From Desulfomonile tiedjei DSM 6799 (GTDB lineage: Bacteria > Desulfobacterota > Desulfomonilia > Desulfomonilales > Desulfomonilaceae): a stretch of DNA of 64,000 bases. Under the pieces are notes generated by a model. It saw only the letters and a program-made list of their open reading frames with translations. It was not told the origin of the DNA and ran no database searches. Positions 10,031 to 13,196 of this stretch are shown piece after piece; position 1 is the stretch's first letter; each line of letters begins with the position of its first letter. Both the position numbers and the translations under genes were made by a program. The stretch is from positions 1,426,001 through 1,490,000 of the forward strand of contig NC_018025.1 in NCBI RefSeq assembly GCF_000266945.1, written 5' to 3'.

Positions 10031-10819
10031 ATGAATCTCGAACAGGATGTTCTTTCGGTTATTCTCCGGAGTCCAGGCATATCCAAACACCAGCTTTCCC
10101 GCATGTTCGATCTTTCGAGCTATCGTTTGCATCGCGTTTTCCGGCTTCTCCAAAGGGATCTGGAGAACCGCATGCTCATCCATCACGAAAACAACGGTGT
10201 GTGGATTGTGGATATCGATTCTGATTTTTGTCAGGGCGTTGACTGGCATGGTCCGGATAATGGTGGATATCGGCAATGTGGGAGCAGGCCCAAGTTTCCT
10301 GATTACCGCTGTTATATGCATTCCCAGTGGCAATCTTCTGAAATGGCTGCATTCAGAAGAGAGCTGGAATCCCTGGTGAGCCCTTGCGATCCCTCCGCGT
10401 ATCATCTTGGCCAACTGACCTTGACCGTCGTTGAAGATATGTTGCGCAAAATTACCGGTATTCGTCCGGTAACACTACAAGAGGAGCTTGCACGACGCCG
10501 TTTTCAGACAATGCTGAAAAACGCTTTCGCGTTCCTCAGATGGAAAGACATGATGCGTCGAAGGAGACGTGAGCAAGAGATTCCGCCGGAATTCTTCGAA
10601 CGTCATAGATCTTCTTCTGTTCGCCCAATGGAATTCGCGGTGAAGAAGTTCTTTCTTATCCTGGAAGTTCCGCCCACCTCAACGCGCGAAGAAGTTCTCA
10701 AAGCGTGGCGAAAGCTCGCCCGGAAATTCCATCCTGATACGGAAAACGGAGATGAAGAAAAGATGAAGGAGTTGAATCACGCAAAAGACCGCATCTTCCG
10801 CATCAGACGATGGGATTGA
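10031..10819 (+). CDS. J-domain protein with N-terminal winged-helix-like region
   Basis: The last 65 residues of this 262-residue protein form a J domain (FFLILEVPPTSTREEVLKAW, then RKLARKFHPD with the HPD tripeptide at about 236-238), which stimulates DnaK ATP hydrolysis. The first 55 residues (DVLSVILRSPGISKHQLSRM, then YRLHRVFRLLQ) look like a winged helix-turn-helix. The middle contains C-x-x-x-x-R and RRRRRE basic segments but no zinc finger or Gly/Phe region, so this is not DnaJ or CbpA. A DNA- or RNA-tethered co-chaperone is possible (inference). It stands alone between the barrel terminator and a hairpin-rich gap. Confidence 0.7.
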   Translation: MNLEQDVLSVILRSPGISKHQLSRMFDLSSYRLHRVFRLLQRDLENRMLIHHENNGVWIVDIDSDFCQGVDWHGPDNGGYRQCGSRPKFPDYRCYMHSQWQSSEMAAFRRELESLVSPCDPSAYHLGQLTLTVVEDMLRKITGIRPVTLQEELARRRFQTMLKNAFAFLRWKDMMRRRRREQEIPPEFFERHRSSSVRPMEFAVKKFFLILEVPPTSTREEVLKAWRKLARKFHPDTENGDEEKMKELNHAKDRIFRIRRWD

Positions 10820-10904
10820 TGTGTTTTATTCAAGGCTTCCGTTATTCCGGTTTCCAGACAAATTGAGTGACTTATTTTCGAAAAGTTATCCGCGAGTAAT
10901 CGTT

Positions 10905-11010
10905 CAGTTGGACTAAACCGCTTCGCGGTGGTTGCATGCCGAGCGGATAGGCGAAGAGGCTTAGTCTAACTGAGGTTTGTGAGAATGCGCTTCGCGACTC
11001 TCACAAACCT
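10905..11010. repeat. Two strong consecutive hairpins
   Basis: CAGTTGGACTAAACC (10905-10919) pairs with GGCTTAGTCTAACTG (10958-10972), 13 of 15 positions. Immediately after, AGGTTTGTGAGA (10973-10984) pairs perfectly with TCTCACAAACCT (10999-11010), with GCGCTTCGCG in the loop. The position after the J-domain gene fits termination, but there is no T tract. They directly precede a family C copy. Confidence 0.6.
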
Positions 11011-11039
11011 AATAGTTGTGGGTGGGCACTGGGGACTCT

Positions 11040-11267
11040 GCGCCCTGGAAGGGCGAACCAACAGTAGCCACGGGTATAACCCGTGGACAGCGCCATGTCC
11101 ATAAGCATGGTTCAACGACCCTGAAAGGGTCGACCAACAGGCAATGATTTCCAAATGTCATTGGCAGACCCTTTCAGGGTCCTGAAGACAAAGGATTTGC
11201 CGTATCGTTTCCGTGGGTTTGCACCCACGGCTACTGTTGGGAAGCCCCTTCGGGGCTGAAGAAACCT
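11040..11267 (+). repeat. Family C modular hairpin repeat, copy 2
   Basis: Consecutive hairpins: GCCCTGGAAGGGC, CCACGGGTATAACCCGTGG, CCATGTCCATAAGCATGG, CGACCCTGAAAGGGTCG, a CAATGA/TCATTG pair, GACCCTTTCAGGGTC, the linker GAAGACAAAGGATTTGCCGT, CCGTGGGTTTGCACCCACGG and AGCCCCTTCGGGGCT. It is nearly identical to the copy at 61000. It ends about 45 bp before the leuA promoter. Confidence 0.85.
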
Positions 11268-11310
11268 CTCTGATGCGTACGTGAATGGTTGCATCCACGC
11301 GATTTTGCAA

Positions 11311-11339
11311 TTGACAGCGAATAAACCTGAAGGTAGTCT
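11311..11339 (+). promoter_or_regulatory. Promoter of the leuA leader
   Basis: TTGACA (11311-11316) and TAGTCT (11334-11339) are separated by 17 nt. The inferred start of transcription is about 20 nt upstream of the leader peptide ATG, leaving room for its Shine-Dalgarno AAGGA at 11357. Confidence 0.6.
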
Positions 11340-11367
11340 AAGGAGCACTAAAGCTCAAGGACTGGTC

Positions 11368-11463
11368 ATGTTGTTGTCCCTTCTTCTTCTTCTGCTGCTG
11401 CTGCTGCTTAGCCTACGGGCTGACGTCTGGGGACTCCATGCCTTTCCTGTGCGGGTGACGTAA
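11368..11463 (+). CDS. leuL: Leucine attenuator leader peptide
   Basis: A 31-codon reading frame encodes Met-Leu-Leu-Ser, then ten consecutive Leu codons (four CTT, five CTG, one CTT), Ser-Leu and a short tail to TAA. AAGGA lies 6 nt before the ATG. Such a run is diagnostic of translation-controlled attenuation: ribosomes stall on the Leu codons when charged leucyl-tRNA is scarce. The sequence CCATGCCTTT (11436-11445) inside the frame can pair, with one bulged base, to the 5' arm of the downstream terminator and so serve as the antiterminator. The promoter, leader, terminator and leuA are in the expected order. Confidence 0.88.
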   Translation: MLLSLLLLLLLLLLSLRADVWGLHAFPVRVT

Positions 11464-11490
11464 AGAACAAGAACACAAACGTGAAAGAGC

Positions 11491-11529
11491 AAAGGCCATG
11501 GGTCCCAACCCCATGGCCTTTTTGTTTTT
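11491..11529 (+). terminator. leuA attenuator (regulated terminator)
   Basis: AAAGGCCATGGG (11491-11502) and CCCATGGCCTTT (11510-11521) form a perfect 12-bp stem with a 7-nt loop, followed by TTGTTTTTT. The 5' arm can instead pair with CCATGCCTTT inside the leader peptide frame. Readthrough should occur when the ribosome stalls on the Leu run. Confidence 0.9.
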
Positions 11530-11684
11530 TCGGACTGAAGAGACTGTGCGGACCTGGATCGAAGGGAGGTGATGAGGCATGGGGCTCGATGGCACACCGG
11601 ATTTACGTAAAGCTCTTGGAGACTTGTACCCATGGGAATTGAAAGGTCTTGGAATTCTAAAGGAACAGAAGAAAGGAAAAGAAA

Positions 11685-13196
11685 GTGAGCCGAAAGATAT
11701 ACGTTTTCGATACTACATTGCGAGATGGGGAACAGGTGCCGGGAGCCAAACTCAACAAGAGGCAAAAGCTGGAAATCGCCCAGCAACTGGCAAAGCTGGG
11801 AGTAGACATTATCGAAGCCGGATTCCCCTGTTCGTCTCCGGGAGATCTTGAGGCCGTTAAGGCCGTATCCGAGCAGGTAAAAGGACCCATAATTACCGGG
11901 CTTGCGCGGGCCGTAAACCAGGACATCGATATGGTGTGGGAAGCAGTGCAACATGCGGAACGTCCGCGCATACACATCTTCCTGGGGTCGTCTGATGTTC
12001 ATCTTTCAAAGAAGTTGCGTCAGGACCGTGAGAGCGCGTTGTCCATGGCTGTGGACGCAGTGCGTTACGCGAAGCGCTTCTGCGAAGATGTGGAGTACTC
12101 TACCGAAGATGCTTCCAGAACGGATTTCGAATACCTCTGCCGGATTGTAGATGCTGTTATTCGTGCCGGTGCCACTGTAGTCAACATACCGGACACTGTC
12201 GGCTACGCTGTGCCCGAGGAATTCGGAGATCTTATTCGCAGGTTAAAAGAAAATGTCCAGGCTTTGGACAAAATTGTACTCAGTGTGCACTGTCATAACG
12301 ATCTGGGTCTTGCTGTTTCCAATAGTATGGCAGCCATAAGAAACGGCGCGAACCAGGTCGAATGTACCATCAACGGGATGGGCGAACGGGCCGGAAATGC
12401 TTCTCTGGAAGAGATCGTCATGCTCCTCAGGACCCGTCATGCCAGTTACGGCGCTCACACCGACATCCGCACGGAAGAGATCTATCGTACCAGCAGACTG
12501 GTGAGCAGGCTCATGAACATTCCGGTTCAACCAAACAAAGCAATTGTTGGAAGCAATGCATTTGCCCATTCTTCGGGCATTCACCAGGATGGCATACTCA
12601 AGGATAGAACTACCTACGAAATCATGAAGCCCGAAGACGTCGGCGTTCGCCAGAATAAGATTGTTCTCACAGCGCGTTCCGGGAGGGCGGCGCTCAGACA
12701 TCGCTTAAACGATCTGGGCTACACCCTGGAATCGGACCAGTTCGAGCGTGTCTACAACCGTTTCCTGAATGTAGCGGATCGAAAGAAGGAAATCGCGGGG
12801 CAGGACCTGAGAAGCATTGTAGAGATCGAATTGACCAAGGTGACGGAAACCTACAGTTTCCACAGTCTCCAAATTATGAGCGGGAATACCATGGTTCCGA
12901 TGGCTTCAGTGACACTGACCAGGGAAGGCAAACAACATACCGATGCGGCCGCAGGCAACGGTCCGGTGAACGCTGTCTTCGCGTGTATAGATCGCATTGT
13001 AGGTCAGCAGGGAATCCTCACGGACTATGATCTTAAGGCGGTAACCATGGGGAAAGACGCTCTGGGAGAAGCCATGGTGAGGGTGGAAATCGGGGATGTG
13101 GTCTATTCAGGTATCGGAACGAGTCCCGATGTTATCGAGGCGAGTGCTCGCGCGTATCTGAATGCATATAATCGCTTCTTCGCAAACTCGCATTAA
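11685..13196 (+). CDS. leuA: 2-isopropylmalate synthase
   Basis: The 503-residue enzyme condenses acetyl-CoA with 2-ketoisovalerate, the first committed step of leucine synthesis. The HMGL-like catalytic domain starts with FDTTLRDGEQVPG (residues 8-20) and contains the metal-binding HCHNDLGLAVSN segment and the NGMGERAGN signature. The C-terminal LeuA dimer domain (about 360-500), the leucine feedback site, is complete. The start is GTG behind AAAGG. An ATG at 11579 with GGGAGGTGATG upstream opens a different frame that overlaps the first 55 codons. No leuB, leuC or leuD follows. Expression should be set by the leucine attenuator and activity by leucine inhibition. Confidence 0.95.
   Translation: MSRKIYVFDTTLRDGEQVPGAKLNKRQKLEIAQQLAKLGVDIIEAGFPCSSPGDLEAVKAVSEQVKGPIITGLARAVNQDIDMVWEAVQHAERPRIHIFLGSSDVHLSKKLRQDRESALSMAVDAVRYAKRFCEDVEYSTEDASRTDFEYLCRIVDAVIRAGATVVNIPDTVGYAVPEEFGDLIRRLKENVQALDKIVLSVHCHNDLGLAVSNSMAAIRNGANQVECTINGMGERAGNASLEEIVMLLRTRHASYGAHTDIRTEEIYRTSRLVSRLMNIPVQPNKAIVGSNAFAHSSGIHQDGILKDRTTYEIMKPEDVGVRQNKIVLTARSGRAALRHRLNDLGYTLESDQFERVYNRFLNVADRKKEIAGQDLRSIVEIELTKVTETYSFHSLQIMSGNTMVPMASVTLTREGKQHTDAAAGNGPVNAVFACIDRIVGQQGILTDYDLKAVTMGKDALGEAMVRVEIGDVVYSGIGTSPDVIEASARAYLNAYNRFFANSH

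Follow-up and report, generated by a model that had tools for sequence, protein, structure and literature searches.

How is leuA controlled at this locus: by a translated leucine leader peptide ahead of the gene, or by a T-box of the kind reported for related bacteria? The window, meaning the whole 64,000-nt stretch of DNA that was analysed, corresponds to positions 1426001–1490000 of a 6,500,104-base contig, in a genome of 6,527,027 bases and two contigs. It carries a 2-isopropylmalate synthase gene (leuA) that is apparently a single-gene unit; downstream, the next long gene-like ORF in the ORF list is on the other strand. A second 2-isopropylmalate synthase is encoded elsewhere in the genome (49% identical to the window LeuA), as is a citramalate synthase, and a scan of the 800 bases upstream of the second synthase gene found no Leu leader.

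The attenuator upstream of leuA

The features of the region are as follows, with the evidence for each in brackets.

11030–11290, no strand assigned: dispersed repeat, not part of the attenuator (65 own-genome matches; internal inverted repeats)
11311–11339, + strand: promoter-like site, TTGACA-17-TAGTCT (sequence; no site at threshold in the sigma-70 scan)
11357–11361, + strand: Shine–Dalgarno sequence AAGGA of the leader peptide, which is also segment 1 (sequence, RNA fold)
11368–11463, + strand: leader peptide, MLLSLLLLLLLLLLSLRADVWGLHAFPVRVT and stop codon (sequence; relatives)
11380–11409, + strand: ten consecutive Leu codons, the control codons (sequence)
11410–11421, + strand: small hairpin (AGCC-TACG-GGCT) that follows the Leu codons (folds; position weakly conserved)
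11436–11445, + strand: segment 2, the 5' half of the antiterminator, inside the His-Ala-Phe codons (pairing, folds, conservation)
11491–11530, + strand: intrinsic terminator (segments 3 and 4) with T run (terminator scan; relatives)
11564–11571, + strand: near-perfect Shine–Dalgarno sequence GGGAGGTG of ORF2 (sequence)
11579–11851, + strand: ORF2, MGLDGTPDLRKALGDLYPWELKG..., overlapping leuA in another frame (ORF list; relatives)
11685–13196, + strand: leuA, 2-isopropylmalate synthase, GTG start (TIGR00973 and NF002086 above cut-off; ORF list)

The first-pass annotation had described a complete leucine attenuator at this place, with a promoter, a 31-codon leader containing ten consecutive Leu codons, a terminator with a perfect 12-bp stem, a competing antiterminator half at 11436–11445 and a repeat just upstream of the promoter. 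All of these were confirmed apart from the promoter, which was borne out in part because, although the -35 element TTGACA (11311–11316) is perfect and lies 17 nt from TAGTCT (11334–11339), the latter matches TATAAT at just three of six positions and the promoter scan of 10800–12000 reported no site. The leader ORF extends from an ATG at 11368 to a TAA at 11461–11463 and includes 14 Leu codons among its 31, with codons 5–14 all specifying Leu (CTT four times, CTG five times, then CTT). When the whole window was scanned in six frames, this was the one run of at least eight Leu codons. The terminator, detected by the scan, pairs 11491–11502 with 11510–11521 (12 pairs, loop of 7) and is followed by TTGTTTTTT. 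Segment 2, CCATGCCTTT, pairs with the terminator 5' arm, AAAGGCCATGG, leaving one bulged C, and in the RNA fold it can also pair with the leader Shine–Dalgarno sequence and start codon. The upstream repeat is real, the 65 matches to 11030–11290 including the repeat itself; it is palindromic, and its 3' end lies about 20 bp upstream of the -35 element in the promoter-like site.

Classical ribosome-mediated leucine attenuation is very likely the way in which leuA is controlled; we infer translation of the leader, a response to leucine and termination in vivo. The switch would be set by charged tRNA-Leu, through the position of the ribosome on the leader. Given enough leucine, the ribosome would pass the Leu codons and reach the stop codon, covering segment 2, so that the terminator at 11491–11521 would form and transcription would end ahead of leuA. 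Under a shortage of Leu-tRNA, the ribosome would stall in the Leu run and leave segment 2 free to pair with the terminator 5' arm, and leuA would be transcribed. The mechanism draws strong support from the conservation of its parts, and folds with a stalled ribosome favour the antiterminator.

Conservation and alternative folds

In a scan of named genome contigs, 80 loci were found, of which 26 encode a LeuA at least 68% identical to that of the window (range 68–88%), while identity in the others is at most 57%. Judged by record titles, these 26 relatives comprise Desulfomonilaceae, Syntrophobacteraceae, Desulfoferrobacter, Desulforhabdus, Desulfosoma, Desulfarculales and further delta-proteobacterial MAGs. 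A Leu-rich leader occurs at the same place in 25 of the 26; the exception is L075 (on the same contig as L142), which encodes this LeuA yet showed neither leader nor terminator in the scans. The terminator was found by script in 24 of the 25 leader-bearing relatives and by eye in L059. It is nearly the same throughout (GGCCATGGG...CCCATGGCC). When the window is compared with 25 relatives, the stem AAAGGCCATGGG/CCCATGGCCTTT shows almost no variation; four of the 12 pairs have both bases replaced in one or more of these 26 sequences. Leader tails of the relatives often encode HAF because the HAF codons form segment 2. Linked changes were seen by eye in L067 (terminator GGCCGCGGG, segment CTCCGGCC) and L066 (terminator GGCCACGGG, segment CCCGATGGC). 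In these loci the leuA start is 42–322 nt beyond the terminator.

The comparison was extended to 45 rows of the window LeuA lineage, made up of the 26 named relatives, 18 from a phylum sample and the window, and including two repeats (L064 = L140 and L075 = L142). A strict Leu-leader test was passed by 36 rows, 35 of which also have a terminator, compared to 1.4 of 45 and 0.0 of 45, respectively, in ten rounds of dinucleotide shuffling of the leuA upstream regions. No other amino acid gave more than four leaders in the 45 rows, and none of those had a terminator. These counts bear on whether a trinucleotide repeat arising by chance could account for the Leu run, with an ordinary terminator behind it. 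The window run is indeed built of CTT and CTG blocks, but the relatives encode theirs with mixed codons, as in L051 (CTCCTGCTCCTTCTCCTCCTTCTT), and this together with the shuffle counts and the presence of Leu leaders in 25 of 26 relatives led to rejection of a chance origin, which is highly improbable.

Pairing of the terminator 5' arm with upstream sequence was assessed using 24-nt windows and 60 shuffles per locus at 26 loci. Complementarity is greatest at a single fixed position, in windows that begin 33–30 nt before the leader stop codon, with a mean of -12.4 kcal/mol compared to -9.2 kcal/mol in shuffles, and is near background further away. In 10 of the 26 loci, no more than three of the 60 shuffles reached the real value. 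Folding of 26 loci with a ribosome mask gave mean upstream pairing of the 5' arm (raw means, without a shuffled control) of 0.66 with the ribosome stalled mid-run, 0.20 with the ribosome at the stop codon and 0.50 with no ribosome. The stalled and stop states differ by more than 0.2 in 23 of the 26 loci, and the stalled value exceeds the unmasked one by 0.2 in 11. A hairpin between segments 1 and 2 is present in the window fold; a ribosome-free state of this kind, as modelled, is weakly supported by the folds.

Counted over the alignment, the antiterminator helix has 80.8% of cells paired, and three of the pairs of the small hairpin at 11410–11421 have 59%. The whole named structure has 74.2% of cells paired, compared to at most 57.0% when it is slid along the alignment; 79 of 500 column shuffles reach the same percentage. 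The segments show so little variation that covariation is not decisive evidence for the antiterminator. Antiterminator z-scores of single loci are mostly weak (-1.1 for the window), and RNAalifold returned no usable consensus for the alignment cut before the terminator 3' arm.

A covariance model (R1) built from 25 sequences gave the window a score of 98.5 bits, against 33 bits for the next-best independent site of this genome. At E-values up to 1e-8, it matched 37 of 39 genomes in the order of G198 and 10 of 12 in the order of G172. Among the best 30 model R1 loci from 395 genomes of the phylum, 24 have LeuA homology downstream. Matches without such homology (L248, L250, L251, L252, L253 and L254) may be further attenuators, or simply terminators that share this stem. 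A tandem pair of hairpins with a CCATGGG core precedes leuA at L146 and L147.

T-boxes and other known elements

Passages in two papers describe T-box control of leuA in Geobacter sulfurreducens, G. metallireducens and Pelobacter carbinolicus (PMC2494555, PMC2700814). The first-pass annotation had contrasted this with the window and proposed that a translated Leu leader would be a regulatory swap. The first half of the remark agrees with the published cases, but the swap is unsupported. RF00230 T-boxes were detected in six of 198 genomes of the phylum, in every case directly before a leuA, and the LeuA proteins they precede are only 49–53% identical to the window LeuA, which places the T-box in the other LeuA lineage. 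In the lineage of the window the Leu leader is the usual state, as seen in 25 of the 26 named relatives, and therefore nothing has been swapped locally. The choice between leader-peptide and T-box control of leuA thus largely follows different LeuA lineages inside one phylum. The leucine T-box (RF00230) shares with the attenuator both gene and signal (tRNA-Leu charging), but reads the uncharged tRNA directly and has no leader peptide.

Searches of Rfam gave no match at gathering score in the window, and within 11300–11690, at E-values up to 10, yielded three low-scoring matches that are all far under their gathering scores. No Rfam match was found in 40 loci around leuA homologues, RF00230 did not match in the window or elsewhere in the genome, and the Leu_leader model (RF00512) gave no covariance-model match at the window locus. 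Despite the T-boxes before leuA in other genomes of the phylum, control of this gene by a T-box or another known RNA class was rejected given the lack of Rfam matches, and its probability is negligible.

Leu leaders are also found in the other LeuA lineage. Among 112 upstream regions, some shortened by contig ends, there were 14 Leu leaders, six of them with a terminator, all six terminators having a GGCC-core stem; shuffles gave 3.0 and 0.0. Leaders before this LeuA were recorded at L007, L009, L011, L014, L023, L222, L246, L247 and L249, and this minority of genomes shows tails such as RPxxxGCP or CPSFLGRH together with the GGCC-core terminator.

The enterobacterial leu attenuator (leuL) has consecutive Leu codons and mutually exclusive antiterminator and terminator structures before leuA, which there heads leuABCD. 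A short Leu-codon leader, an antiterminator that excludes an intrinsic terminator and a position before leuA are shared by leuL (RF00512) and the present attenuator; the latter differs in that it precedes leuA alone, has a longer Leu run and uses its HAF-type tail codons as segment 2. The attenuator is lineage-wide, lies outside Rfam and is known in kind. It adds a well-supported class of leucine attenuator, unmatched in Rfam, in the majority of genomes from at least one order of the phylum. Literature searches on leuA or leucine attenuation in delta-proteobacteria, and on uORFs of leuA, returned nothing on this system, and broader ones gave papers on attenuation and T-boxes in general; we do not claim that the attenuator is unpublished, since it may be listed by Vitreschak (2004) or Lopatovskaya (2010).

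A different type of Leu-rich uORF before leuA is the actinobacterial LEU element, which, as outlined in PMC1262725, has a pseudoknot and pairing with the ribosome-binding site in place of a classical terminator. Since LEU-type elements with Leu-rich leaders exist, a translational element in which the Leu codons would base-pair with the ribosome-binding site of leuA was considered for the present locus. Each leader, however, is followed by an intrinsic terminator, with the leuA start 42–322 nt further on, and the leuA ribosome-binding site is on average unpaired more often than the sequence around it (mean unpaired fraction over 24 loci of 0.52 and 0.42, respectively, with 0.32 for the ORF2 site), which makes a LEU-type element very unlikely.

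The same genome carries a Trp attenuator before trpE (L255), with leader MIPLCNLNNWWWCWIKRTREVCLF and stop codon, four Trp codons and terminator AAAAGGCCATGGGC...GCCCATGGCTTTTTT. It is classical-looking and spans about 1387–1540 of the locus (about 4783125–4783278 of G000:C1), with the terminator reading AAAAGGCCATGGGCAGACAGCCCATGGCTTTTTT. This terminator is the only other R1 site in the genome, and it scores higher on the strand opposite to that of trpE (33 bits) than on the trpE strand (29 bits). The trpE and leuA attenuators have nearly the same terminator stem but different leaders, and the former would sense Trp; the common stem hints at a shared design.

An overlapping ORF between terminator and leuA

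Downstream of 11311–11529, the stretch to which the original observation was confined, a second small ORF (ORF2) starts at an ATG at 11579 (MGLDGxxDL...) and overlaps the start of leuA by 167 nt (11685–11851). The conserved overlapping ORF2 is more surprising than the attenuator itself. Its signature between terminator and leuA, AAAGGAGGTGATG-spacer-ATGGGNCT, is present in 22 of the 45 rows of the window LeuA lineage and in none of the 112 upstream regions of the other lineage. The peptide has no match in NCBIfam.

With the ORF2 start and Shine–Dalgarno sequence chosen without regard to the downstream frame, the frame is open through the leuA start in 22 of 22 rows, compared to five and none for the other two frames and an expectation of 3.9 from base shuffles. 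A cleaned set of 28 distinct loci (rows L226, L278, L279, L281, L284, L272 and L059 removed, L225 filtered out) gave 28 of 28 open against 5.9 expected, the other two frames being open in seven and none. Outside this set, the frame is also open in L225 and in L059, the latter with a non-consensus start (MKL). Codon 3 is Leu in 27 of the 28 loci. In a coding test from which six rows were excluded for codon deletions or unusual starts, seven of 300 column permutations reached the synonymous fraction over the first ten ORF2 codons in the larger group, and 60 of 300 did so in the L071–L081 group. Taken from sequence, ORF2 is probably a real overlapping uORF, and would most likely be translated on antiterminated transcripts.

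ORF2 could alternatively encode the true N-terminus of LeuA, the assumed leuA start being too late. Of the 28 loci, 11 have ORF2 in the leuA frame, 16 have it at +1 and one at +2, so that it is out of frame in 17, the window included; the out-of-frame copies end 26–272 nt inside leuA, and leuA starts have their own purine-rich Shine–Dalgarno-like sequence. The frame counts reject an N-terminal extension as a general explanation, and it is unlikely overall, though possible in single species.

What an overlapping uORF might do is more tentative. ORF2 may form a second, translational layer that follows the transcriptional one, with leucyl-tRNA setting leuA expression at both steps, although the chances are clearly against it. 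With plentiful leucine, ribosomes on ORF2 would run across the start of leuA and compete with initiation there, and when leucine is short they would stall at the conserved early Leu codons. Unfolding of a hidden leuA ribosome-binding site by ORF2 is unsupported, as the site is already more open than its surroundings. A plainer reading than competition with leuA initiation is that ORF2 ribosomes would protect the new transcript. The conserved ORF2 offers a concrete, testable object for effects of leader uORFs on translation after antitermination. A strict ORF2 DNA pattern, which undercounts because it misses the copy in the window itself, was found in four of 297 genomes of the phylum, each time just behind a leuA attenuator.
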